From Thraustochytrium sp. TN22 (lineage: Eukaryota; Sar; Bigyra; Thraustochytrida; Thraustochytriidae): DNA of 37,150 bases. Numbering within the stretch: the first letter of the stretch is position 1; the number at the start of each line of letters is the position of its first letter. The stretch covers positions 1 through 37,150 of the forward strand of contig JABLUY010000305.1 of assembly GCA_013306675.1 (NCBI GenBank), given 5' to 3'. The notes beneath the pieces were generated by a model. That model was not told the origin of the DNA. It saw only the letters and a program-made list of their open reading frames with translations, and ran no database searches. This document shows positions 5,429 through 36,583 of the stretch, one piece after another. The translations under genes were made by a program, and so were the position numbers.

Positions 5429-7000
5429 ATGGCCGCGGAGGCGCTCGCCGAGGCGGCGGAGCTGCGCGAGCAGGAGCTGGAGGTGCTGGAGGCCGTGCTG
5501 GGCGAGGAACTCGTGGTGGAGACGGTAGAGCTAGAGACTCAGGACGGCGGCACGCGGTCGATGCAGCGGCTGCAAATCATGGTGCAGAGCAACGGGCTGG
5601 AGAAGATCTGCCAGCGCGTCATCGTGCTCGAGGTCACGCTGCCGGTCATGTACCCACTGTCGCTGCCGGCCGTGGCAATCGAGGCGCACGGGCACGTGAG
5701 CCAGGCGCAGGCAGACTCGCTGCACGAGGAGCTGCTGACGTGGGCCTCGGCGCACCTGGGCGAGCCCATGGTGCTGGAGCTCGTCAACATGGCGCGCGAC
5801 TTCGTGGTGGGCGTCATCGAGACGAACGCGCACGTGGCGGCGCGCAGCAGCGCGCCCTTCCTCCGCGAGCACGGCCTGGCCATTCTGAACGCGCTGCGCT
5901 CGGAGATGGCCGAGCCGGACGCAGCCGCGCAGCCGCGCCTGCTCACCGTTGGCGTTCCAGCAGACGCGTATGCCATCACGCCGGATGACCCGTACTGGGC
6001 CGAGTACCAGGAGTACCTGGCACGCGGCATGGACGACATCGAGATCGCGCTGCTCGCCGCCAAGCGCGCAGAGGAGGCGCGTCTGCCGCTCGTCTCGGAT
6101 TTCATCACCATCACCGACCTCTTCCGCCTGCTGCCGGAGGACATGGCCATCCTCAAGATCGAGAACGTCATGCGCTCCGACATCGCGCAAAAGTTCCAGA
6201 CCTGCCGCGAGGACCTCGCGCGCCGCGCCAAGGCCGCAGGTCGCGAGGTCAGAGGTCACGAGATCATGTTTCACGGCACGCGTGCCGACTCCGCAGCCAG
6301 CATCGTGCGCACCGGCCTCATCCCGCCCGGCAAGCGCGGCGTGCAGATCGTCAACGGCGCTGCCTTTGGCGCCGGCATCTACTTCGGCAAGAACCCTGCC
6401 ATCTCCCTCAACTACTGCTGGCCTGACGCCAACAGGACGTGCCGCCTCTTCATCTGCGCCGTGCTCAAGGGCGAGTCGCGCCAGGAGCTCGTTTACGACC
6501 ACAACGACTTCGCCGTCATCGGCAACGCCGAGCAGGTCCTTCCGCTTTACGTGGTGCACTTCACCTACCACCCAAACCACTACGGCAGCGTCATCGCCAT
6601 GAGTGATGCCGGCACACTCCTCGCGGTCCCAACGTACTTCAACAGCAGCATCAAGAACAACAACCGCACCTTCTCCAACCGCCTGCGGAACGATGACGAC
6701 TCCCTGCGGAAGACCGCCAAGGACGCCGCGCGCGCCGCCGCCATGGAGAACGCCGCGCACTACTTTGACCTCAAGCGCTACCAGGTCCTCGACGTCGCCG
6801 AAGTCGACGACGACGACGACTTCACGCAGTACTTGGGCCGTGCCGACCTCCTCCCCATTGTCATCGACTCCAACGCTGGCGTTGAGGCGCGCTGCGTTGG
6901 CGGCTACGTGCAGACCAACTCGTATCAGGTCGACCGTGTGGTTGTGGTTGCCGAGGACGCCCACATTGCCACAAAGTCATCCAACGACGCGGACCCATGA
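5429..7000 (+). CDS. RWD domain plus PARP catalytic domain protein (ADP-ribosyltransferase)
   Basis: 523 residues starting at the ATG after GCCGCAGC. Residues about 8-125 have the RWD pattern: an N-terminal helix rich in Glu/Leu, strands, then the YPLSLPAV segment in the usual YP..P place. RWD domains are protein-interaction folds, often on ubiquitin-pathway proteins. A helical linker leads to a PARP-type catalytic fold at about 230-390, with the NAD-binding His in FHGT (His282), the Tyr in GAGIYFGKN (Tyr318), and a C-terminal strand VLPLYVVHF. At the place of the PARP1-type catalytic Glu the local sequence is Asn-Asp-Phe-Ala-Val-Ile, with Phe361 aligned and Asp360 beside it. This predicts mono- rather than poly-ADP-ribosylation (inference). 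The ~130-residue C-terminal tail, with a DDDDD run, is unrecognised. The gene is intronless and converges on SIL1 with 79 bp between the stops. Confidence 0.85.
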   Translation: MAAEALAEAAELREQELEVLEAVLGEELVVETVELETQDGGTRSMQRLQIMVQSNGLEKICQRVIVLEVTLPVMYPLSLPAVAIEAHGHVSQAQADSLHEELLTWASAHLGEPMVLELVNMARDFVVGVIETNAHVAARSSAPFLREHGLAILNALRSEMAEPDAAAQPRLLTVGVPADAYAITPDDPYWAEYQEYLARGMDDIEIALLAAKRAEEARLPLVSDFITITDLFRLLPEDMAILKIENVMRSDIAQKFQTCREDLARRAKAAGREVRGHEIMFHGTRADSAASIVRTGLIPPGKRGVQIVNGAAFGAGIYFGKNPAISLNYCWPDANRTCRLFICAVLKGESRQELVYDHNDFAVIGNAEQVLPLYVVHFTYHPNHYGSVIAMSDAGTLLAVPTYFNSSIKNNNRTFSNRLRNDDDSLRKTAKDAARAAAMENAAHYFDLKRYQVLDVAEVDDDDDFTQYLGRADLLPIVIDSNAGVEARCVGGYVQTNSYQVDRVVVVAEDAHIATKSSNDADP

Positions 7001-23063: not shown

Positions 23064-23647
23064 CTTCTCGCTGGCCTGTTCGCCCGCTTCGGCTCGGCTG
23101 GCCTCGGCGCCTTTTCTTGTCTGGTCTCTTGAGGGTCTGCGCGCTGGCCCTGGCCGCCGCCACGCGCCTGCTTTGCAGGAGTTATGCACGCGGAAGCCAG
23201 GGCTCCCCCCGTTTCCAACTTGAAACAACCATAAAACTAGCCGCTGCAGACCGCTCGTGTCTCTGCGGCGTCCACGTACGAGGCCATCTGCGCCCTCGAA
23301 CGCCCGCGCGCGCAGAGGCGTGACCGTTTGCCGGTTACTTTTCGACCAAGTTCTCCGGGACAGCCGGTGCGCGCCACCGCGAACGGGGACCGCCACGTGC
23401 CGTCCCGCGCCAGAATTGGACGCTCAGCGAGCGAGCGAGCGAGCGCGCGCGCGCGAGAGAGAGAGAGCGCGCGCGCGCGCATCGCCGCAGAGCACCGCGC
23501 CGCATCGCGCCGCGCAGGGCAGGCCAGACTAGGCTAGGCTAGGCTCGGGCACGCCTGGCGAGGCCACGCCCGGCCACGCCACGCCACGGCCAGGGCGGCG
23601 CGCTACGCGCTCGTTGCGACCAGGCCACGCCAAGCTTGCTTGCCAGC
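23064..23647. promoter_or_regulatory. Divergent promoter region of the secreted protein and DH-PH-FYVE genes
   Basis: 584 bp with no gene. It contains a mixed GAGC/GC/GA simple repeat (about 23428-23482) and short AGGCT and CCACG repeats (23520-23590) just upstream of the + strand start. Confidence 0.5.
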
Positions 23648-26600
23648 ATGATGACGTCCATGGAGGAGACGCGTAGCACGGAGCTGCTCGAGGTGGTGCG
23701 CGAGTTCGCCGGCAAGCTCGGCGTCTTCCGGCGCGTCTTCGTGACGGCGCTCTGGGCGGATCTGCGAGCGCAGCACACGGGCATGAGCACGCTGCTGCCG
23801 CGCAACGCGTGGAGCGTGGCCTTTTTGCGCACAGCCAGCACCATCTTCACGCTCAATGAGCACCTGGAGCGCGAAATGGACGAGGTCGCGCGCCGAGACA
23901 CCTACGCAGCCGAGCTGGAGACCGTTCTGCTCCACTTCGCGCCGCTCTTCTCAGTCTACGCACAGTATTACGAGTGCAAGAAGCCCTTCGCGGAGCTCGT
24001 GCGCGCCGGCCGCCGTCGCGCCCCAGGGCTCGTCGCCTTGGTCCAGGAGACCGAGAGCCGCGTCGGTATGGATCTCGACAGTATTCTAGACCTGCCTCTG
24101 GAGCAAGTCATCGCACTGCGCGGCTGCCTCAGCAAGCGCCTGGGCCGTGCCGACGAGGCCGAGGTCCACGAGGCGCTGAGGCCCGTCGCGCGCATGCTCG
24201 AGTCCGTGCAGTCGGCCCTCAACGAGATCGAGTCCAGACATGCCAGCGAGGCGCTCCTCGTGCAGATCGACGCGGCCTGGGACGTTGGGCCGCACCTGTT
24301 TGCCATCAAGCGGCCCGGCCGCCTTGTGCTCAAAGAGGGCGCCCTCGTCAAAGTCTCGCGCCGCAAGGAGGCGCGCTATCAGTTCGTGCTCTTCAACGAC
24401 GTCCTTCTCTACGGCTCGCGCGCATCGACGCTGACTGGCTCGCGCCGCCGCTTCCGCATGCACAACGCGCTCAACCTCGCCTCGGTGCGCGTCGGCGTCA
24501 TCTCCCTTGGCGACGAGGTGGACCACGGCGCGGCGCCTGGCTCGCCGCCCTCGGGTGCTCGGCGCTCGCGTGAGGCCAGCCCGGTTCGCAGCAGCGTCGG
24601 GTCACCAAATTCCGGCGCTGTCGTGGCGCAGGATGTCACTGTGGGCAGCGCGGTGCTCTCCCTGCTGTCCTCTTTGGCGCCCTCGCAGCAGGGCGACCTA
24701 AGCTTCAACATCTATTCCGCGGACGGCAACAAGAGCTTCCGCGTCAAGGCAGCAACCCCGGCCGAGCTCTGTGACTGGTGGCTCGCACTCTCGCGCGCGG
24801 TCGCAAAGCTGCGCAAGCCGAGCCAGGCGATCACCAATATTGGGTCCCTGGAGCTCTCCCCGGTGTGGCAGCCGGACAAAGCCTCGTCGGCCTGCACGCA
24901 GTGCTCGACGCCGTTCACTACGCTGCGCCGCCGCCACCACTGCTATGCGTGCGGCCTGCTCTTGTGCGGCAGCTGCTCTCGCTACCGCGGGACGCGTCAG
25001 GTGTCAGGCCTCGCGAGGCAGAGTACGCTGCAGCGCGTCCTCTCGCGCCAGGCGTCGACCGGCCTCAGCGACCGCGCCGAGGAGAGCCGCACCGAGTCTC
25101 GCGACGTGCGCATGTGCCGCTCGTGCTATTTCATGTCTCACGAGACTTCGACAGCAGCGGCAGCGGCGACGACAATGGCGGCAACGGTTCCGGCGACGAC
25201 GGCGATGCCGGCAGCGGCGGCGATGGCAGCAGCAACGGCAGCAGCAGAGGCAGAAGCAGAAGCAGAAGTCGCCTCGGTGGCGGCGTCCGCAGCAGCGCTG
25301 TCTTTGCAAAATTGCGAGACAACGGGCCTCCTGGCCTCGGTGAACTCTGCGCCAGCCTCACCGCCGGCTTCGTCCATGTCCGAGCACCTTCGCGTGGCGC
25401 TGGACATCTTGCACTCGGAGCAGTCATACCTGGAGGGTCTGCGCACGCTGCTCCACGTGTACGTGCGGCCCTTGTTGGACGACTTCCGGTCCGACGCGAG
25501 GCTCGTGGGCGGTGAGATGGTTGGCATCGTCAAGACGGCGGACCTGGCGTCCATCTTTGTCTTCTTGGCGGATGTCCAGTACATTGCCGCGCTGAGCGGG
25601 CGGCTCATCGAGGCCCTGCAGGAGCACTGCTTCGCGACGCAGGACGCGACCCAGGACGGTCACGTCAGTCTTACCGGGTCCATCGCCGAGGTCTTTCTGC
25701 GCATGAGCCCACTTTTCCAGCTGTATGACGAGTACTCGAGCTCGTTTGAGTTCGCGAATCGCACATTGGTGGAGAAGACGTACGCGCTGCCGGCGCTGCG
25801 GGCCTTTTTGGACAAGCAAAAAGTGAAGCACGGCGAGGAGCTGCGCCGCGTCGGCGCGCAGTGCATGCAGAGCCTGCTCATTCTGCCGATCCAGCGGCTG
25901 CCACGCTACATTATGCTCCTGGATCGTCTGCGCAAGCACACGCCACCTGCCAGCGCGGAGCACGAGCGTTTGGGCGTTGCGGTGGACGCGATCCGGGCCA
26001 TGACCACGCACATCAACGAGCGCATTCGTGAGCGGGAGGGCCTGGTGCGCATGCACGAGCTCACGCAGGCGTGGGGCGACGTCATCATTGACCGGGCGCC
26101 GGCAGACCGACAGTGCGTGCGCGAGGGCCAGCTCGTGAAGCAGTCGCGCAAGGGCCAAAAGCGGTACGAGTTCGTGCTCTTCTCGGACGCGCTCATGTAT
26201 GGCGAACGCGAGGACTTTGGTCAGGGCGTGCGCCACCACCGCACGCTGCTTACGGCACACTGCAGGGTGGCCCGCGTTGCGGGCGACGCGTGCGCGATCG
26301 AAGTGGTGGGCCGCGAAAAGTCCTTCTTGGTGCGCGCCCCGGACGAGGCGGTCTGCACAGCGTGGTTTTCTGACCTGCAAGTCACGATTGGCGCGGCGCG
26401 GGCGCGCCAACGCAGCGTGGAAAGCGAGACGGCCCCGGTGTGGGCCAAGGACACGCCGCGGTGCATGCGCTGCGAGACCGTCTTTTCGCTCTTCGCGCGG
26501 CCCCACCACTGCCGCCGCTGTGGAAGATGCCTGTGCGGCGATTGCACGCCTGTGCGTTGGCTGCTGGAGCACATTGACCCGGTCAAGCCGCAGCGCGTCT

Positions 26601-26743
26601 GCCTGGATTGCTATGGCACGCTGTACGCGGCCTTGGGACCGCCCTGCGACCCGCGCGAAACTGAGCATTCCAACAAGTCGGCTGTGGAGGGCAGCAAGGC
26701 CGCTGCCTCGCGCGCCACGGAGGAAGAGGAGAAGACGACGTGA
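23648..26743 (+). CDS. Internally duplicated DH-PH-FYVE protein (FGD-like Rho-family GEF)
   Basis: 1031 residues in one exon. The start is the ATG at 23648 (a second in-frame ATG lies at 23660); the frame upstream has only a TTG. The protein is two copies of one layout. First half: helical DH-like domain (about 5-205), PH (217-390, with YQFVLFNDVLLYG), FYVE (407-510, with WQPD and RRRHHCYACG). Second half: DH (578-790, with LHSEQSYLEGLRTLL and LLILPIQRLPRYIMLL), PH (819-915, with YEFVLFSDALMYG), FYVE (930-1005, with WAKD and ARPHHCRRCG). The QRLPRY helix makes the second DH the better candidate for exchange activity; the first lacks it and may be regulatory. FYVE domains bind phosphatidylinositol 3-phosphate, so an endosomal membrane role is expected. 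An Ala/Thr-rich linker (500-575) joins the halves. The stop codon lies in a microsatellite. Confidence 0.92.
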   Translation: MMTSMEETRSTELLEVVREFAGKLGVFRRVFVTALWADLRAQHTGMSTLLPRNAWSVAFLRTASTIFTLNEHLEREMDEVARRDTYAAELETVLLHFAPLFSVYAQYYECKKPFAELVRAGRRRAPGLVALVQETESRVGMDLDSILDLPLEQVIALRGCLSKRLGRADEAEVHEALRPVARMLESVQSALNEIESRHASEALLVQIDAAWDVGPHLFAIKRPGRLVLKEGALVKVSRRKEARYQFVLFNDVLLYGSRASTLTGSRRRFRMHNALNLASVRVGVISLGDEVDHGAAPGSPPSGARRSREASPVRSSVGSPNSGAVVAQDVTVGSAVLSLLSSLAPSQQGDLSFNIYSADGNKSFRVKAATPAELCDWWLALSRAVAKLRKPSQAITNIGSLELSPVWQPDKASSACTQCSTPFTTLRRRHHCYACGLLLCGSCSRYRGTRQVSGLARQSTLQRVLSRQASTGLSDRAEESRTESRDVRMCRSCYFMSHETSTAAAAATTMAATVPATTAMPAAAAMAAATAAAEAEAEAEVASVAASAAALSLQNCETTGLLASVNSAPASPPASSMSEHLRVALDILHSEQSYLEGLRTLLHVYVRPLLDDFRSDARLVGGEMVGIVKTADLASIFVFLADVQYIAALSGRLIEALQEHCFATQDATQDGHVSLTGSIAEVFLRMSPLFQLYDEYSSSFEFANRTLVEKTYALPALRAFLDKQKVKHGEELRRVGAQCMQSLLILPIQRLPRYIMLLDRLRKHTPPASAEHERLGVAVDAIRAMTTHINERIREREGLVRMHELTQAWGDVIIDRAPADRQCVREGQLVKQSRKGQKRYEFVLFSDALMYGEREDFGQGVRHHRTLLTAHCRVARVAGDACAIEVVGREKSFLVRAPDEAVCTAWFSDLQVTIGAARARQRSVESETAPVWAKDTPRCMRCETVFSLFARPHHCRRCGRCLCGDCTPVRWLLEHIDPVKPQRVCLDCYGTLYAALGPPCDPRETEHSNKSAVEGSKAAASRATEEEEKTT

Positions 26744-26910: not shown

Positions 26911-29037
26911 TCAGGCAGACATGGCGCGGAGCGCGGAGAGAACCGCGCCGAGGTCAACGCACTCCTGTGCGATGGCACTCGCGAGCGGCGTGCTGAGCCC
27001 GGCTGCAGCCGCCGTCATCATACATAGGGAGAGCGACATGCCGCCCACTACGGTTTGGCGCGCGACGCGGACGACCGTCCTGCTCGCAGCGACGAGGCTG
27101 GCGATGTTATCAAGGTCGGAGCTAAGCAGGACGACCGAGGCACTCTCGGCAGCGAGGTTGGTCTCGCCGATGCTCATGCCCACATCGGCGGCGGCGAGGG
27201 CCGCGGAGTCGTTGGCCCCATCGCCCACCATGATGACGACCTCGCCCTCGCGCTGCAGCGAGGTGACGACTTGCGCCTTCTCGTCGGGCCAGCAGGAAGC
27301 GTACTCGGAGACGCCAAGCTCGCGCGCGACCTGCGCCAGGTGCTCGCTGCGGTCCCCGCTGAGCACCATGACGCGCAGGCCGAGGTCGTCGCGCAGCCTG
27401 CGCATGAGAGGCGCCGCAGACGGCCGCAAGTTGTCCCGGAAGGTGAAGCGGCCGTGTGCACGGACCTCCCCGCGGTCGAGCACCACAAAGCACGCCTCGA
27501 TGTCGGCGTCGGCCTGGTCGATGGTCTCTTGCACGGCCACCTCTCGGCCCTGGAAGCAGAACCTGCGCGAGCCCACAACGACCTCGAGCGGCGGCGACGT
27601 CTTGTCTGTTTGCACTGTGGCGGCGATGCCACTGCCGTCCTGCTGGTCGATGTGTGCGACCGGCAGGCGGCCGACGCGGGCCCCAGCCCTCTTTTGCTCC
27701 TCATCAAAGAAAGCACAGATGGCTTCCGCGAGCGGGTGCGTTGAGTACTGCTCGGCGCTAGCGACGAGGCGCAGCAAGGCGAGGCGCGCCGCGTCCTGTT
27801 CCTGGCACTGGCCGTCGTTGTCGCCGTCAAGGCTTCCAGTGGCGGTCCAGCCGGTGACAGTGGGCTCCCCCTCGGTGAGCGTGCCAGTCTTGTCCAGTAC
27901 AACGACGGTGGCCTTGGCGAGCGCCTCGAGCGCCGCGCCGGTCTTGACGGTGGCGCCACAGCGGCGGCTCGCGACGCTCATGCCGGAGAGCATGGCGATG
28001 GGCACGCCGATGCCGGCCGGGCAGGGTGTGGCGGACATGAAGACAGCCAGCACGGCCTCCCAGGAGCGGCGCGGGCCGGCGCTGCGCCATTTTGCGACGA
28101 TGCTTGCGAGCGCTGCGAGAGCAAAGGTGAGGGGCGTGAAGAAGGCGACGAAACGCTTAGACTTGAGCTCCATATCGCCGCGGCGCTCGAGCGCCTCTGC
28201 GAGCGCCGCCTTCATGCGCGCCAACACGGAGTCGCCGTAGCGGCACTCGACACGGACACGGCAGGCGCCGCCCACGAGGCGAGAGCCGGCGAGCACGCTC
28301 TGGCCGACGTTCTTGACCTGCGGCAGGCCCTCGCCGGTGAGCACGCTCTCGTCGAAGGCGGGCCGCTCACGGGTCTCGAGACCGTCCACGAGGCCGTCCA
28401 CCGGCACGGTTTCGCCCTTCTTGAGCAGGATGAGGTCGCCGGCCAGGAGGTCCTCGCTCGCCACGTCCTCGACCCAGCCCGAGAGCGGGTCCACGCGGTG
28501 CGCGAGGCCCGGCGCCTGCTCAAGCAGCGAGTGCAGGGCGCTGCCAGCCTTGTTGAGCGCGTGCTCCTCGAAGGCCTCGCCGCCCGTGAGCATGAGCAGA
28601 ATCACCGCCACGGCGCGCACCTGGTTCAAGCAGAGCCCGAGCTGCATGGCGATGAGCGCCGGGATGTCGGCCTCGCCGCTCGTGAGCGCCTCAGAGCCCT
28701 GGCGCACGGCCTCGGCCAGCTCCGGCACCATGCCTGCAGCGACCGTTGCCCACAGCACGGCCCTCGCACGTGCCCCAGCACGCGCGCCCAGCAGCCTGGC
28801 GGCGGCCACGTCGGCTGCGAGGCTCGCCGCTGCGGCGGCCGGCACCGCCGTGGACGGCAGGCGCTCCAGCGCCGTGCGGACCTTTTTCGAGGCCAGCACC
28901 ACGGCGACGAGCACCCATTGCAGCGCCAGCGTCTTTTTGCCAGCGCGCGAGGCCACGCGCCGCAGCCCGCCGAGCTGCAGCGCGAGCGGCACGAGCGCCG
29001 CCGCCGTGAGGCCCAGGGCCGCCCTGCCGCCCGCCAT
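26911..29037 (-). CDS. P1B-type heavy-metal transporting ATPase
   Basis: 708 residues from the ATG at 29035-29037. Core motifs in order: actuator loop FDESVLTGEG (near residue 240); a transmembrane metal site TPCPAG with Cys339 (TPC where most copper and zinc pumps have CPC); phosphorylation motif DKTGTLTEG (Asp382); STHPLAEAI, the His-Pro of the P1B nucleotide domain; and GDGANDSAALAAADVG, the hinge. There is no N-terminal CxxC metal-binding domain; the first ~150 residues are hydrophobic helices. It should pump a transition-metal ion across a membrane using ATP; TPC-type pumps are metal-uncertain, so I assign none. The C-terminal helix before the stop (ECVDLGAVLSALRA) matches the usual P1B end. 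It has no introns and converges on the DH-PH-FYVE gene. Confidence 0.92.
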   Translation of the reverse strand: MAGGRAALGLTAAALVPLALQLGGLRRVASRAGKKTLALQWVLVAVVLASKKVRTALERLPSTAVPAAAAASLAADVAAARLLGARAGARARAVLWATVAAGMVPELAEAVRQGSEALTSGEADIPALIAMQLGLCLNQVRAVAVILLMLTGGEAFEEHALNKAGSALHSLLEQAPGLAHRVDPLSGWVEDVASEDLLAGDLILLKKGETVPVDGLVDGLETRERPAFDESVLTGEGLPQVKNVGQSVLAGSRLVGGACRVRVECRYGDSVLARMKAALAEALERRGDMELKSKRFVAFFTPLTFALAALASIVAKWRSAGPRRSWEAVLAVFMSATPCPAGIGVPIAMLSGMSVASRRCGATVKTGAALEALAKATVVVLDKTGTLTEGEPTVTGWTATGSLDGDNDGQCQEQDAARLALLRLVASAEQYSTHPLAEAICAFFDEEQKRAGARVGRLPVAHIDQQDGSGIAATVQTDKTSPPLEVVVGSRRFCFQGREVAVQETIDQADADIEACFVVLDRGEVRAHGRFTFRDNLRPSAAPLMRRLRDDLGLRVMVLSGDRSEHLAQVARELGVSEYASCWPDEKAQVVTSLQREGEVVIMVGDGANDSAALAAADVGMSIGETNLAAESASVVLLSSDLDNIASLVAASRTVVRVARQTVVGGMSLSLCMMTAAAAGLSTPLASAIAQECVDLGAVLSALRAMSA

Positions 29038-29674
29038 CCCGCTCTCGCTCGCGACCTTGCGACCTCGCGACCTGGTGGGCGCGGGGCGAGCGCCGGCTGC
29101 GACGCGCAGCGCCGCACCGCGCCGGAGGGGCGCCTGCCCGCCGCCGCCGCGCCGCCGCGCGGAGGGCTCTGCCGCGCGCTCGCCCGCGTCAAGTTCCGCC
29201 CTTGCCGTGCTCGTCCTCCCCTTCTTCGCGCCGTCGCGCCGCCCCTGCCGCGGCGGCGGCGCGTCTCGCGGCGCGGCGCGACGCGATGGGCGGCGCGTGC
29301 GCGCGGCGCGGGCGCGGGGCGCTCAGGCTCGCCGGCGGCCTCGCGCGTCCAAGCGCGCGCGGCGTTCTGCGATGCGCGGGAAGGTTCACCTCGTGCCGCT
29401 GTGCTGCGCTGCGCTCTGAGCGCTGCGCATGACACGCACGTGCAGCGAGCTGGCGGCCTGGCGCGCGCGGGCGGCGCGAGCAGGCAGCGCTTGCGTGCGT
29501 TGCGATCCGCGGCTACCGGTGCCAGCTCGAGCTGCGCTGCACTGCGCTGCGCTGCAGTCGAGAGGCTGTTCAAGTCTTGCCAGCCCTGGCGCTTGCCACT
29601 GCCCGAGGCACAGGCTGCCAGCAGTCGCGGCGGCTGTCAACTGTTCAGGGTCATGGGTGACCTGGAGAACCCTG
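29038..29674. promoter_or_regulatory. Upstream region of the metal ATPase gene
   Basis: GC-rich DNA up to the transposon. No gene is supported. Before the insertion this was the ATPase side of a divergent promoter shared with the Sfi1/IQ gene. A short GCTGC repeat run lies at 29403-29415 and again at 29537-29555. Confidence 0.45.
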
Positions 29675-29682
29675 CGACGGCG
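29675..29682. repeat. Target-site duplication, left copy
   Basis: CGACGGCG directly abuts the left terminal inverted repeat. The identical octamer follows the right terminal repeat at 34859-34866. Confidence 0.93.
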
Positions 29683-29694
29683 TCTAAGGTATCG
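29683..29694 (+). repeat. Left terminal inverted repeat
   Basis: TCTAAGGTATCG. With the adjacent CG of the target duplication the inverted match to the right end is 14 bp. Beyond it the two ends differ. Confidence 0.93.
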
Positions 29695-29724
29695 ATTTGG
29701 GGGTCCTTTTGAGAGTCGCGGTCT

Positions 29725-29794
29725 CGGACCGGGGATTTCGCAGTGCCGACCGGGCCTTTTCGCGCCGGACCGGGGAAAACGCAGTGGCGACCCG
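29725..29794. repeat. Subterminal direct repeat, two copies, 41-bp period
   Basis: CGGACCGGGG..CGCAGTGCCGACC at 29725 and CGGACCGGGG..CGCAGTGGCGACC at 29766. Paired subterminal repeats near transposon ends are often transposase-binding sites; that role is inference. Confidence 0.75.
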
Positions 29795-30108
29795 GGGGGG
29801 CGCGCTCGGGCACCGCGCAAAGCGCGGTGTCAGGCCGCGTGTTCCCTGGTGTGAGGAGCAAATACGGCGAAGTGCTTGAGGCGTCTCCATCGGAGTACCA
29901 TCGCGCGGCATGGAAGGCTGAGTTGATCGAGGTTCGCGTTCTGGCTACGCGGGCTGCGCGCGCTTGGAAAGAGCACTCTGATGGAGACAATGGAGCCGCC
30001 CGCTGCTCGCGCAGATGCCGCGCACAACGTCGAGCTGGTGCGACGCGAGCACATCGCTGACGTGGCGCCGCGCTGCCAGCAGGGGCTGCATGCCCAATCG
30101 ACCGTGCC

Positions 30109-30231
30109 CGAGTCGCGGGTTCGGTTTGTGGATGCCACGGCAACGCCATGCTCAAATGCCTCGGCTGCGAGAACTGCAACACCTCGATGTGCCCGTCGGA
30201 GATCTCCATGCGGAAGACAAAATGTTGAACA
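30109..30231 (+). other. Cys-cluster coding segment inside the transposon (possible exon)
   Basis: The frame around 30130-30225 reads VCGCHGNAMLKCLGCENCNTSM with further Cys and ends at a TGA at 30226-30228. The regular CxC..CxxCxxC spacing looks like a zinc-binding cluster. An upstream stop at 30058 in the same frame means any exon must start after it. No start codon or splice site can be fixed, so it is listed only as a candidate exon. Confidence 0.3.
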
Positions 30232-30866
30232 TCTTTTCACGCAGACCTATTCGTCTCTACAGCGCAGACTAGAGCGCTTCCCGCTCTTGCTATCTCAGAT
30301 ATCTGCTGTTTCGTTCGGCTCCGAAGGCGTCGAGGCGCGGCGCGCGCGAGACCCCGGTGGTCTTCTTCTCCAAGCGCTCCGCGCCCGACCGGGTCTCGGC
30401 ATCTGCGCGCGCGGGAAGCCGCCGCGCCTGTGAAGCTGGGATGCGCAGCTCGCTGGGCTCGTCCCAGCAACGGGTGTTAACCACGCTGCCGGGGCTGGGC
30501 AGCCGACCGGTCCGGCGCTGTGGCTCGAGGGCGCGCGCGCGCGCGCGCCGTTGCTGCTGCTGTCGTAAACCTGCAGGAGCGCCATTTTCTTACCGAGTGA
30601 AAGCTCGTATCAGCGTAGCCATCGTGCTCACTGGCCGCTGAGCCTGGGTCGGCGATGAACAGCTCTTTGAAGAGGTGCCATAGCCAAAAGGAAAGCGCAT
30701 GCTCGCTCTCAGATCAGGAAATGGTCCGCTGGGGCAGCGCGTGTGACCCGTGCAGTCAGCCTGAGTGCGTCTTGGTCCAGACGCCGCTCATCAGCGACAC
30801 GCACACGCTTGCCCGCCTGGAGATTGTCCTTCTTGAAGAACTCAAGCCCGGTCATTCTGGCCCTGT

Positions 30867-31067
30867 TTGAAGCACGCGGGCGCATCCTGTGAGCTCCACG
30901 AGCTCGCGCCAAGGCCGCTGCTCGTGTACTGTGCGAGTCATCACGCAATCAACACGGTTGGCGTGCAGCCTGGCGGCGCGCTTGCTGGGACAATCGAGGC
31001 TTTCAACAAGCTCCCGTGCCAACTCCTCCGGAATGTGCTCGACGAGGTCCAGCAAACATTGGCGTGA
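30867..31067 (+). other. Protein-like segment inside the transposon (possible exon)
   Basis: Open frame of 66 codons with high GC at third positions, reading ELAPRPLLVYCASHHAINTV and then GTIEAFNKLPCQLLRNVLDEV to a TGA. The VYCASHHAIN stretch faintly recalls the 'HC.aH.lnl' motif of hAT-like transposases, but nothing around it confirms this. The same frame is open again at 31077-31742. Confidence 0.3.
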
Positions 31068-31076
31068 CGTCTCGCG

Positions 31077-31742
31077 ATGGACTCGCACAGCTTCGCGTTC
31101 CCAGGCTGCGCGCCCTGTCCTCATCGCAAGCCGATGTCGAGCACCCGCAAGTCGCAGTTCCGGACGCGTCGCCGCCGCAAGGAGACGGACAATTCTCATT
31201 CCCTGCTGGAGCATACCGCGCCCGCGCGACACGCAAAGGCCAGCCACGCTGGACTCAAAGAAGATCCATCATGCCATCGCTGCTTTGAGGGCCCGTTGAG
31301 GGCCGCTGAGCACATGTCATTTCCGAGGTGCCTGATGCCGCTCACGAGCGCGATCACCTCACCGTTGATGGTGCGGAGGTCGGCCCGGTCGCTTTCGCTT
31401 TCGGTGTCCTCTTCGTTGGCAATGAAGAAGCGAGCCCGCCATCGGCATCGTCGCTACCGCCGCTCCCATCGGCGTCGCCGTCACCAACGCTGTCCTTTGC
31501 GCGCTCTATGTTTCAACCTCCTGCCGCAATTGCTTGCGCGCCTTCGTCGGCGGGTGCGCGAGGCCGCTGACCTCACGTTGGTGAAGCACCTTTGCAAGAC
31601 CCATCGTCGCGCAGCTGGGACTACGATCACGGTACAACATCCGATCTCCATTCTGACCGAGAAGAAGCTACAGCCCTACGCAGCGTACTTGAGGAGCTTG
31701 TTGCTCGTCTTGTTAGTATTGTCCTGCATGCGACGCTCGTAG
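31077..31742 (+). other. Basic protein-like segment inside the transposon (possible exon)
   Basis: 221-codon frame, the longest on the + strand of the element. It includes CAPCPHRKPMSSTRKSQF, an Arg/His-rich tract, and a well-formed stretch (about 31560-31700) reading LTLVKHLCKTHRRAAGTT then ILTEKKLQPYAAYLRSLL. The Arg-rich middle may be out of frame. A GTTAGT that could be a donor site follows at 31713. Product unknown. Confidence 0.3.
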
Positions 31743-32092
31743 CCATCTTCGCGACGACCTTGTCCGTGAAGAGCACCAAAGAGTCCAAGGCTGAGTGGAT
31801 CATGATGCAGGAGCCTGAAGCTTGAATCCCCCGGCCTTCCCGCGCGGCAAGGTTCATGGCCTCTTTGGACACGACGCTTTAAGCTCGTCGTGGCGAGCCG
31901 TAAGGCGAGCTCTGCCTGCCGCAGCCGCCGCGCCGCGACTGCTGTGACGTGGCGTGGATTCGAGAGGCTAGAGAACTTGCCTCTCAAGCTCGTGTCTGCA
32001 ATCTGCAGAGGAAGCAGTCCTGCCGCCGCGCCCTCGCCGCGCCGTAGCCGCCCCGCTGCACGCCGTCCCTCGGCAGGCGCTTGATGATGGGA

Positions 32093-32109
32093 CACTGGCA
32101 CTGCCAGTG
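32093..32109. repeat. 17-bp palindrome CACTGGCA-C-TGCCAGTG inside the transposon
   Basis: Perfect 8-bp arms around one base. The same TGGCAGT/ACTGCCA motif recurs near 32316, 32498, 32558, 32830, 34610, 34647 and 34835, including very close to the right terminus. Confidence 0.6.
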
Positions 32110-32908
32110 AAGAAGGCCGAGGCCTTCAAGTTGTCAGAGTGCATTTTCGAAGGCGAAGTTCAACTTTCAGACTGGCAAAAGGCGGTGCCAGCCTCGCTAT
32201 GATGCAACGCGGCGCAGGGCCGGCCAGGGGTGGCTGGCGCGGCGCACGCGCGGCCGAGGGCGGCCGAGGCCAGCCAAGGCCGGCTCAGCGCACGCCGCGC
32301 GGCCCTTGCTGTGCGCTGGCAGTGCCCTTCGTCCGCGTCGCACAGGCCGCCGCCCATCATGAGGCAGTCGAGTCCCGCTCGCCGCCGCGCTGCCAGAGCC
32401 CTCGCCATCGCGCAGAGATCCGCACGCGACTCTGGCCGGCGGGGCGGCGGCAACCGGGGCGGGCGGCCGCAGCCCGCCAGCTGGCAACTCGCTCGCACTG
32501 GCAGTGAGGCCGTGCCGGCCGTGCCACGTCAGTACTATGCCTAGGCCTTGGCCGCCCTGCCAGTGCGCAGAACAGGCCAGGACAGTACACGGCCCGGCCG
32601 GCCGCCGCCCAGCGCCTCCAAGCGCAACGCCCAGCAACGCCCATCGACGCCCAGCGACGCCCACCAGCACGGCACTCATTCCGCCGCACACCCAGGCTGT
32701 CACCACCTTCAAGTTCTGAGCCCGCGGGCCGTCCGAAATCCGTCAGCAGAACTTGAACTTGAACAGCTTCATCAAGTCTGGGCAAGTCTGGCAAGTCCGG
32801 GTCGGTAAGGGCAGCCAGAGCGCTGGAACTGGCAGTACCGTAAGGCTGCCATCATGGGGTACTAGACCGTGGCCTTCACCGTGGCCTTCACCGTGACCGT
32901 GCCCATGC

Positions 32909-34029
32909 ATGCCGTCCGAGTCGAGCTTGGGCGCGGGCCCGGACACGGCAGCCAACGAGAGCACGCCCAGCCAGAGCACGGCCAGCGAGTGCACAGCCAC
33001 GGAGACATTGGTCGACATGAGCAGGGTCCCGGACTCGCCGACCGATACGAGCCGAGCCTCGCAGGTGCCGGTCAATGACATCGTGGCAAGTCGCATGCAG
33101 CGTAGCCGCGTGCGCGAGCTGCTCTTAGGCCTCGAAGAGGTCCTGAGCGCGGCAGCTAGGCCTGAGAGTGTCCCTTTGGCCGAGTTGCGTCAGATCACCC
33201 CAACCCCCGCGGGAGGCCTTGGTGGCGCAAGTCAACCTCGGCTCGCCCTCTTCATAGAGATGCTCTTCTCTCTGTCGGTTCAGATGCTCTCGGACCAGGA
33301 CTTCTCGTGCGTCATGAGCCTTGAGATCTTCTTCTGGGTGCTCTGGCTCAGGTGCACGATGGCACTCTGGCAGGGGATCATAATTGCGGTTGCTCGCGCG
33401 GGTGCCATTCTCTGTGCGAGACAACGAGCTGGCCTCGCCCGTAAGTTTGTCCTGCTGATCAGAGCAGAATCTCCACGACGGAGAACTCGATTGTGCGGCT
33501 GACTCGCTGCTTGATTACTGAGCGCTGACAGTAAGTGCAACTCAGACAAGCATCTCCGACAAGCGCACCGTCTTCAAGTCCAAGGCCACGCCCGAGAGAT
33601 CGATACAATCCCTCGAATGCTGAACGCCCTCATCCCTGGCAACACCGAGAACATGTGCAACCCCAGTAGCCCACCGTCCTTGCGAGCCAACGCGGGCGAC
33701 CAGCTGCGCTCGGCGGCCGTACTTGCCGGCATTTCGAAGAACATGCACCCAATGCAGTGCCTTCCTAGTCGCAACGCCGCCGTTCCTCTGGTTCATCAAG
33801 GGCGGTCCGTCCTCATGACAGACACACCGTCCACCCGGGATGTGCTCTTGGGCCGTGGCCCTCGCGCCCGGCGCAAGACTCTCTTGGTATGTTTGATTCG
33901 AGACTCTGTGGTCGCGTGCACAACTAACAGGCCGACGTGCAGGCTCCGACGAGGCTCGCCACGAGCGCTCCGATAACGACGCAGACGACAGCGCAGACTG
34001 AGAACAATGTGACGTCGGGCCAGGCTTGA
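32909..34029 (+). CDS. Predicted three-exon gene inside the transposon, product unknown
   Basis: Exons 32909-33440, 33546-33886 and 33943-34029 join in frame to 319 residues. Intron 1 has donor GTAAGT, a GCTGAC branch-like site and acceptor AACTCAG about 20 nt later. Intron 2 (56 bp) has GTATGT, CTAAC and GTGCAG. These donor types are the same as in the primase gene. The product begins with a Ser/Thr/Ala-rich region (MPSESSLGAG), then a helical part (RVRELLLGLEEVLSAA), a hydrophobic stretch (IFFWVLWLRCTMALWQ) and a polar C-terminus. I recognise no domain. The ATG follows a TGA in the same frame, but an upstream exon spliced in is possible. Exon A also reads plausibly on the other strand, so confidence is limited. 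Confidence 0.4.
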
Positions 34030-34133
34030 ATCCTAAGGTTGTCGTTCTCAATGCGGCCTGGGGAGCTACTGTTCCTTTTAGTCGGGTTTGCTGGACCCGT
34101 CTCGCCACTAACACTGCCAGAAGCTCTTCGAGC

Positions 34134-34520
34134 TGGTGCTTGTGCAGGAGCTCGCATGGCGCTGGGCATGGCTAATGGATGCCACAAGACAGATGTTGTA
34201 TGGTTCCGAGCCACAGTCGCGGGCGCTTCTGGCTCGGGCCGCGCGACGTAACCCACTTACGGCGGCGCTCAGGGTCAGAGCACAGGCTTGCGTGGTCGTT
34301 GCGTGGGCGCGACCCAGCCACTCGAAGAGGTCTGCGCAAAGACTCACACCAAGTACTTGCCCTTCACGCACATGGTCGCCTCTTTTCGGACAGCAGCAGA
34401 TCCAAGAAGACTCGCCGCGGCAAGCGTCTCGCGAAGAACAGTCCTCGTGAGAGCTCTCCGCCGACCAGCTGCCCTGTGACATCAGAAGGCGATGAGTCGA
34501 TGCATGAGACATACCAGTAG
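34134..34520 (+). other. Protein-like C-terminal segment inside the transposon
   Basis: After a CTAAC..CTGCCAG acceptor-like site near 34110-34122, the frame KLFELVLVQELAWRWAWLMD runs to about 34260. A different frame ends the region with RSKKTRRGKRLAKN, a basic nuclear-localisation-like run, and stops TAG at 34518-34520. Joining them needs an intron or a frameshift that I cannot place. Confidence 0.3.
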
Positions 34521-34690
34521 GCATAAAGAAAAATACATCGAATGCTTTTTGGGATACTGCACAGTATTTGGTCGCAAAATTGCAGCTCCGTACTGCCCCA
34601 CGCTCAGACGGCAACTGCCATAATTGCTGTCCGCAACCGCCAATCTGGCAGTCCAAACCATCAAGTTCCCAGCCTGTGGACTACCAAATC

Positions 34691-34784
34691 GCCGGTCGGC
34701 GGGGGGACGGGAACACTCCGTCCCCCCTTCCTAGCCTGCCCCCCCGCCGGGGGAAACCCGGAATTTGGCGGTCTGCCGACCGGC
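34691..34784. repeat. Nested inverted repeats near the right end of the transposon
   Basis: Outer arms GCCGGTCGGC (34691-34700) and GCCGACCGGC (34775-34784) are perfect inverted repeats. Nested inside is a perfect 10-bp stem GGGGGGACGG / CCGTCCCCCC (34701-34710 and 34718-34727) with a 7-base loop. An approximate direct repeat CTAGCCTG..ACCCGGA(A/C)TTTGGC follows at about 34731 and 34811. Confidence 0.85.
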
Positions 34785-34846
34785 AAATCGGCCGAATTTT
34801 GAACTATTTTCTAGCCTGTCTGGAGACCCGGACTTTGGCAGTACCC

Positions 34847-34858
34847 CGATACCTTAGA
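34847..34858 (-). repeat. Right terminal inverted repeat
   Basis: CGATACCTTAGA is the exact reverse complement of the left end at 29683-29694. Confidence 0.93.
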
Positions 34859-34866
34859 CGACGGCG
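34859..34866. repeat. Target-site duplication, right copy
   Basis: CGACGGCG is identical to the octamer at 29675-29682, and begins immediately after the right terminal repeat. Confidence 0.93.
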
Positions 34867-35050
34867 CCGGCGCGGAGTCCGAGTCCAGCGAGAGCGAGAG
34901 CGTCCCGGTCCCGGTCGCGGCATCGGCAGGCAGGGGCTCTAGCTAGAGCTGGAGCGAGGAGCAGATAGGGGTTGTATACAGAGGAAGAGACTAGGTACAG
35001 CCAGCAGGCAGGCAGGCAGGCAGGCAGGGCCGGGAGCGGCGAGCGGCGAG

Positions 35051-36583
35051 ATGGAGCTGCTGGCGCGCGGCGGGCGGCGCGCGTCGGAGCGCGAGGCCGT
35101 CTGGAAGGACGTGCGGTCGCTGCAGGCGCTGCACTTCGAGAAGCGCGTGTTCGCGCTGCAGAGGGAGTTTGAAGAGAAGCAGCGCGACGCGCAGCGGCGA
35201 GCGAAAAGGCATGACGCCTGCGTGCGGGCGCGCATGCGCACGGCGATGCGCAGTGCCAAGGAAGCCGGCAGCGCCGGGCAGACGAGGGGGCTGCGCAGTC
35301 TGCGCAGATCGCGAGAGCACTTTGAAAGCGAGACGCGGGACGCGCCCGCCAGCGTTGTGGTGCACTCACGGCACGCAGGGCGCTACAAGGTCGGCCGCGA
35401 GGAGGACCTGCTCCTCGCGGACGGCGCGGTCGTGCGCGGGACCGTCGCAGGGCTGACATTTCGGTCGGCCGATGACGTCCTCGTTCGCTTGCGGCGCGGG
35501 CACGCGCCAGCGTTCGCCGACTGGCAGACGCAAGCGTACGAGCTCGAGGCGCGCGCCGCCATGCTCGACGCCATGAACAGTGAGTTCGAGGCCTGCATGG
35601 CGTGGGCTCGCGCCGGCCTCGACGATGAAGATACCGGCGCTGAGCAGGCCTCGCTGCCCGTGACGTCCCTGGGAGAAACGCCGCGGCACGGGCAGGGCGA
35701 CTCGGAGGCGCTCGCACGGAGGGGCGTCCAGGTCGCGCTCGCCCGAGAGCAGCTCGAGGACGCGCTGCTGTACCGCGAGCTCTATGCGCGCTACGGCGGC
35801 TTCGAGGACGCGAATCTGGAGCGGCCCGGCGCGGCGCTCGCGTTTCGCGTCAAGCTCGCCTCTCGCAACCTCACGCGGTGGTTCCAGGGCCTGGCTGCGC
35901 GGCGTCAGCAGCGACGAGAGCAGCTGGTGGTTGCCTTCCAGGCGAGGTGTCGCGGCGTCCAGGCGCGCCGCGTCGCGGCGGCGCGCCGTGGCGCGCAGCA
36001 GCGATCGCTCCGGGCGCGCGAGGCGCAGGCTTCGGCTGATGTCCGCGAGGCGTTCTCCGCGTGGAGGCGACAGGTCGCCGCGCGGCGGCGGGCGCGCTCC
36101 GTCATGGAGGCGCTTCACCTGCGCCGCGAGCGCCGCGTCTGGGCCGCTTGGCGGGCCCTCATGCGCGAGCGCTCGGACTGCCGCGCCCGCGGCACGCGGC
36201 GCCTCATTGTCATGTGCGCGCAGCCGTGGTTCGAGCGGTGGCGGCAAACGACGGGCCGCATCCGGGTCCGGCGCGCCGCGGCGCAACTCGGGCGCAGGTT
36301 GCGGCTGCGGCGCGTTTTGGAGCAATGGGTCGAGGTCACCGTGGACGCACTCGCGCAGACGCACCTGCGGCGGCGCGCGGCGGCCACCGAGATCCAGCGC
36401 GTGTTTCGAGGCAGCCTGGCGCGGGGCGAGGCGGTACGGCACTGGCGGTCCATCACCGCGCTGCAGGCGCTGGCTCGGGGTCAGAGCAGTCGGCGTGAGT
36501 TCGAGCGCTTCAACGGGCTCCGCATGCGGCTCGAGCGCCAGCGCCAGCGCCGAGACGGGGCCGCCCAGCGCGCCCTCGTGTAG
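35051..36583 (+). CDS. Sfi1/IQ-type centrin- or calmodulin-binding protein
   Basis: 510 residues, one exon, ATG in GCGAGATGGAG. The first ~110 residues are a charged coiled coil (EKRVFALQREFEEKQRD). A middle segment (about 115-290) has no recognised fold. The C-terminal ~230 residues are Arg-rich helices with Trp-centred repeats of Sfi1 type (AFSAWRRQVAARRR, VWAAWRALMRER, WFERWRQTTGRIRVRR, VLEQWVEVT). IQ-like motifs are also present (VAFQARCRGVQARR; EIQRVFRGSLARG; LQALARGQSSRREF). Such repeats bind centrin or calmodulin in centrioles, basal bodies and flagella; family and location are inferred from repeat type only. The upstream promoter is cut off by the transposon, whose right end is about 190 bp away. 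An 8-bp-arm hairpin (AGCCAGCG/CGCTGGCT) overlaps the TAG stop. Confidence 0.75.
   Translation: MELLARGGRRASEREAVWKDVRSLQALHFEKRVFALQREFEEKQRDAQRRAKRHDACVRARMRTAMRSAKEAGSAGQTRGLRSLRRSREHFESETRDAPASVVVHSRHAGRYKVGREEDLLLADGAVVRGTVAGLTFRSADDVLVRLRRGHAPAFADWQTQAYELEARAAMLDAMNSEFEACMAWARAGLDDEDTGAEQASLPVTSLGETPRHGQGDSEALARRGVQVALAREQLEDALLYRELYARYGGFEDANLERPGAALAFRVKLASRNLTRWFQGLAARRQQRREQLVVAFQARCRGVQARRVAAARRGAQQRSLRAREAQASADVREAFSAWRRQVAARRRARSVMEALHLRRERRVWAAWRALMRERSDCRARGTRRLIVMCAQPWFERWRQTTGRIRVRRAAAQLGRRLRLRRVLEQWVEVTVDALAQTHLRRRAAATEIQRVFRGSLARGEAVRHWRSITALQALARGQSSRREFERFNGLRMRLERQRQRRDGAAQRALV

Follow-up and report, generated by a model that had tools for sequence, protein, structure and literature searches.

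The window (the whole stretch of 37,150 nucleotides, contig C228 of an assembly of 37,891,866 bases in 453 contigs) carries at 29681-34860 a DNA transposon of 5180 bp, which is genuine, recently multiplied mobile DNA. Very probably it is an internally deleted, non-autonomous cut-and-paste element, and its family belongs, as a divergent lineage akin to Plavaka, to the CACTA/EnSpm-Mirage-Chapaev-Transib (CMCT) clade. The kinship with Plavaka is based on one sub-threshold profile match together with motifs and the length of the target duplications, and not on a tree.

Ends, copies and target duplications

The original prediction, a note made on the window sequence, described an inverted repeat at 29683, its exact complement ending at 34858, and CGACGGCG on both sides. 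All three are present, the repeat being the 12-mer TCTAAGGTATCG at 29683-29694 with its complement at 34847-34858. At up to two mismatches, TCTAAGGTATCG has these two matches in the window and no others. At least two such matches are also found in 11 of 100 shuffles, so the inverted pair in the window alone is not proof of a transposon. Genome-wide, the 12-mer occurs exactly six times (three forward, three reverse; one and none in the backward-read control). The six occurrences form three inverted pairs, in the window, C62 and C233, spanning 5176, 5130 and 5127 bp, and this rules out chance. A search for the terminal inverted repeat (TIR) found 10 places with one mismatch, many of them likely due to chance as the control had 13 matches.

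The copies in C62 and C233 are 99.2% identical to the window element outside gaps (42 mismatches in 5123 aligned bases and 32 in 3832, respectively). In all three, the homology ends at the TIRs and the flanks are unlike each other. The original prediction was right in proposing a DNA transposon with perfect TIRs. An apparent non-homologous stretch of 1.3 kb in C233 was considered as captured cargo and rejected, as it consists of N (1284 inside the element).

More distant relatives were found in two ways. The element as a DNA query retrieves diverged copies in C152 and C7 (both of 4703 bp, with 99.94% mutual identity) and C222 (7741 bp), as well as fragments in C66 and C48. The transposase of C222 as a query adds a further group, consisting of C206 (two elements), C77, C106 and C418; a pattern for one end of this group matches these five places and no others, with none in the backward-read control.

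All 11 copies in which both ends are seen share the conserved end CGTCTARG...CYTAGACG, which starts 2 bp (CG) outside the boundary of the original prediction. The ends had been taken as defined to the base; they lie further out, and the element therefore spans 29681-34860 with a TIR of 14 bp. With these ends, the flanks of the window copy match over 4 bp (ACGG). It is then clear that CGACGGCG is CG-ACGG-CG, where one CG on each side belongs to the TIR, and that a single copy can mimic an 8-bp duplication, as the window copy does.

The proposed 8-bp target duplication is found in none of the 11 copies, while an exact 2-bp duplication flanks 10 of them, in six different sequences:

C62, CG
C233, GC
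C222, AG
C152, TG
C7, GC
C77, GC
C106, CA
C418, CC
C206b, GC
C206a, GC

At such spacing in the fetched sequence, the chance rate is 0.076 for a 2-bp match and 0.006 for a 4-bp match, and the binomial probability of at least 10 matches among 11 is about 7e-11, although C206a and C206b abut and are hence not fully independent. A TIR starting at TCT, with CG as the target duplication, was compatible with the first three copies and was then rejected; CG is favoured as part of the TIR because the exact 2-bp matches sit just outside it in 10 of 11 copies.

The resulting features of the window copy are:

29681-34860, whole element of 5180 bp, a predicted non-autonomous copy, with ends common to C62, C233 and the diverged groups
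29677-29680, left target duplication ACGG, 4 bp
34861-34864, right target duplication ACGG
29681-29694, plus strand, left TIR CGTCTAAGGTATCG, 14 bp
34847-34860, minus strand, right TIR, exact complement of the left, 14 bp
29725-29795, plus strand, a 30-nt unit occurring as two subterminal direct repeats (29725-29754 and 29766-29795)
34752-34849, plus strand, a 28-nt unit occurring as two subterminal direct repeats (34752-34779 and 34822-34849)

The 30-nt repeats are possible binding sites of the transposase.

Some observations concern individual copies. At about 8232-18944 of C206, two members of the family are arranged head to tail and separated by a single GC; one seems to have inserted at the target duplication that flanks the other. 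A lone exact end, CGTCTAGGCTATCG, is found at C410:156411-156424; its partner end is absent, either through truncation of the copy or through a break in the assembly. The window element contains a stretch of about 256 bp (about 30296-30551) that is missing from C152 and C48, whose alignments continue across the spot. This stretch is 78% identical to C66:262545-262781 and is a separate insert in the group of copies to which the window copy belongs.

Transposase, second gene and their remnants

The element in C222 contains an open frame of 1230 codons on the minus strand, with the first Met at residue 7. The protein (P0001), about 1220 residues long, is predicted to be a DDE-type transposase whose N-terminal part has a zinc-finger-like region and whose putative catalytic residues are D521, D620 and E919. 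Long open frames of relatives are present in C206 (1293 codons), C432 (1307) and C161 (1044), with 37%, 30% and 29% identity to P0001, respectively. In a MAFFT alignment, on which the catalytic positions were picked by eye, D, D, CxxC, HxxxH and E follow in this order in P0001, P0003 and P0004, i.e., in three of the four transposases. The fourth, P0005 from C161, retains CxxC and HxxxH, but has E then D at the first D, a GD one column off at the second and K for the final E, and is probably inactive judging from these residues. This relative, with a long open frame and changed catalytic positions, is either dying or co-opted; it adjoins a long tandem array in which several frames are open.

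One of these proteins, P0004 from C432, matches the Pfam family Plavaka (PF18759) at E=4.9e-5 and 23.1 bits over residues 483-729 (232 profile positions), below the curated cut-off of 26.3 bits. Within the matched region lie both D residues that open the catalytic triad, as well as the C(2)C motif. A search of the Protein Data Bank (PDB) with P0001 gave no matches, and one with the transposase alignment gave four weak matches, the best (E=0.1) to a zinc finger. Ten pattern matches were obtained when bacterial and archaeal genomes were scanned with P0001, with no relative among them.

A second frame (ORF2) in C222 is oriented divergently from the transposase and has 539 residues with one inferred intron of 61 bases. 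It is common to C222 and C206 (28% identity over 225 residues, E=6e-18). Two groups have ORF2, and another two retain remnants of it. The ORF2 protein P0002 matched no Pfam family; P0006 gave seven families, none above the cut-off, the best at E=0.0058 in a glutamine/histidine-rich part.

With the C222 proteins as reference, the window copy is seen by tblastn to hold pieces of both genes:

31643-31885, minus strand, remnant of the N-terminal part of the transposase (about residues 6-95 of P0001), a CxxC/zinc-finger-like region with one internal stop
31286-31411, minus strand, remnant of transposase residues 257-298
30585-30806, minus strand, remnant of the C-terminal transposase residues 1146-1215
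32921-33882, plus strand, decayed ORF2 remnant, residues 15-350, frame broken (E=3.9e-13)
34115-34483, plus strand, decayed 3' remnant of ORF2, residues 411-537 (E=2.9e-5)

Transposase residues 299-1145, including the catalytic core, were not found in the window copy by tblastn. The window copy is thus predicted to be non-autonomous through loss of this core, in line with one of the two options offered in the original prediction, a non-autonomous carrier. The statement that no recognisable transposase is visible holds in that none is intact, but remnants of both genes can be recognised once a relative is known. Pfam searches with ten of 48 open frames gave a single match, over 17 residues at E=0.012, which is attributed to chance, and Rfam gave none over 29600-34900.

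The copy in C62 has the same three transposase regions as the window and C233 two of them, the third falling within the N stretch. As three copies share this state, the group was amplified after the loss of the enzyme and was probably moved in trans. The elements in C152 and C7 likewise hold pieces only of both genes, and those in C77, C106, C418 and C206b match both sides of the C206a element without about 3 kb of its transposase; all of these look like further deletion derivatives.

We suggest that the transposase would bind the CGTCTARG ends and the subterminal repeats, that the element would be excised by a DDE RNase-H reaction, and that it would insert with a stagger of 2 bases, or 4 in the insertion of the window copy. 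As three copies with the same deletion sit at different places, the window copy would have depended for its movement on a transposase produced elsewhere. The nearest source in the assembly is C222, whose TIR differs from that of the window at 2 of 14 positions. Therefore, either C222 cross-mobilises the group, or the true partner has died out or is missing from the assembly.

Affiliation of the family

In the sections consulted of PMC12730594 (Kojima 2025), the CMCT signature is a DDE triad with C(2)C and H(3-4)H between the second D and E, and the clade makes duplications of 2-5 bp. PlavakaA and PlavakaB are described there as fungal DNA transposons with target duplications of 2 bp and 2-3 bp and termini TGT...ACA and CATCA...TGATG, respectively. 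The present family resembles Plavaka (PF18759) in a DDE triad with C(2)C and H(3)H, in its 2-bp duplications and in the sub-threshold profile match of one member. It differs in its CG...CG termini, a very diverged transposase and a second gene on the opposite strand without a convincing Pfam match.

Plant CACTA elements have a two-gene layout. The short TIR, the subterminal repeats, duplications of 2-3 bp and a DDE transposase with a second gene are likewise reminiscent of CACTA/EnSpm; however, the element has no CACTA/CAC terminus and the transposases have no CACTA-family match in Pfam scans.

Several observations weigh against a Plavaka-like assignment. The profile match is seen in one of four transposases, below the cut-off, and Pfam scans gave none in P0001, P0003, P0005 or four core fragments. 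Searching all six frames of the genome with PF18759 also gave nothing, though this search is insensitive, as it missed P0004 too and was silent in the control genomes. The termini agree neither with a reported Plavaka type nor with the usual CA...TG of CMCT elements, and the duplication of the window copy is 4 bp and not 2. Finally, no empty site was found elsewhere in the assembly, the joined window flanks matching the window's own two flanks only. The HMM search against transposase families recommended in the original prediction yielded a sub-threshold Plavaka match in one relative and no Plavaka match in the other three.

Given these points, the family could instead be a lineage separate from Plavaka; it would then form a further branch of CMCT, or a DDE superfamily of its own that is characterised by CG...CG ends and 2-bp duplications. 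This would agree with the single sub-threshold match, with the lack of a convincing PDB relative by sequence and with termini that differ from both Plavaka types given in the cited parts of PMC12730594. We consider it unlikely, as the match in P0004 includes the first two catalytic D and C(2)C, and three of four transposases have the CMCT motif set. The undescribed group proposed in the original prediction is right in part, since a Plavaka match is seen in just one transposase of four, and there below the cut-off.

A superfamily with 8-bp duplications (hAT, P, Merlin or KDZ/Zisupton), as first suggested, is very improbable. The perfect repeat of CGACGGCG around the 12-bp inner TIR of the window copy is the only likeness, and with the conserved ends no copy has such a duplication; the two further copies found through the 12-mer, as the original prediction had recommended, carry 2-bp duplications. 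The related transposase P0004 matches Plavaka, the fuller members encode a Plavaka/CMCT-type transposase, and the sole hAT-dimer match (C199, E=0.003) is on another contig. The KDZ domain (PF18758) gave no match in the genome or the four transposases, nor in the control genomes.

That the element is not mobile, but a segmental duplication or assembly artefact resembling TIRs, is hardly conceivable: the assembly is imperfect, as the N in one of three close copies reveal, but in the copies compared the homology stops at the TIR ends between differing flanks, and ten target duplications are precise.

The assignment to a divergent Plavaka-like lineage of the CMCT clade is therefore retained, and the family is named Plavaka-like, and not PlavakaA or PlavakaB, because of the termini CGTCTARG...CYTAGACG in 11 of 11 copies. 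More tentatively, it can be speculated that this is a third Plavaka-type (or new CMCT) lineage, in which terminal recognition has switched to CGTCTARG...CYTAGACG and which travels with the divergently oriented ORF2 as a partner, which may be needed to help in recognising the ends or in escaping silencing.

Genomic setting and significance

The element lies between two divergent genes, encoding a P-type ATPase (26911-29037, minus strand) and an IQ-motif protein with its ATG at 35051, 190 bases past the right end of the element. Elsewhere in the window, a plus-strand gene with RWD and PARP catalytic domains is found at 5429-7000, and an open frame of 1035 residues with two FYVE stretches, RhoGEF and PH domains at 23636-26743 (plus strand).

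As to the host, the Zn_clus domain (Zn2Cys6, PF00172) is mainly fungal; it has seven matches over the cut-off in the genome (C143, C177, C201, C122, C23, C306 and C166), with at most nine candidates scored, so that the host may be a fungus. A genome search for the chlorophyll-binding family PF00504 found no match, and the control genomes were silent too.

Outside fungi, Plavaka is on record in Amoebidium (PMC11244446) and in the green alga Auxenochlorella (PMC12633428), in the portions of these papers drawn on here. If the reading as a third lineage is true and the host is not a fungus, the range of the group would be widened. The family would also represent a Plavaka-type transposase group at the limit of profile detection, and add a terminal type to the two reported for Plavaka in the cited parts of PMC12730594. 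Moreover, an element that seems complete, with two genes, together with deletion derivatives that were amplified recently may be a useful set for studying the role of the second gene.

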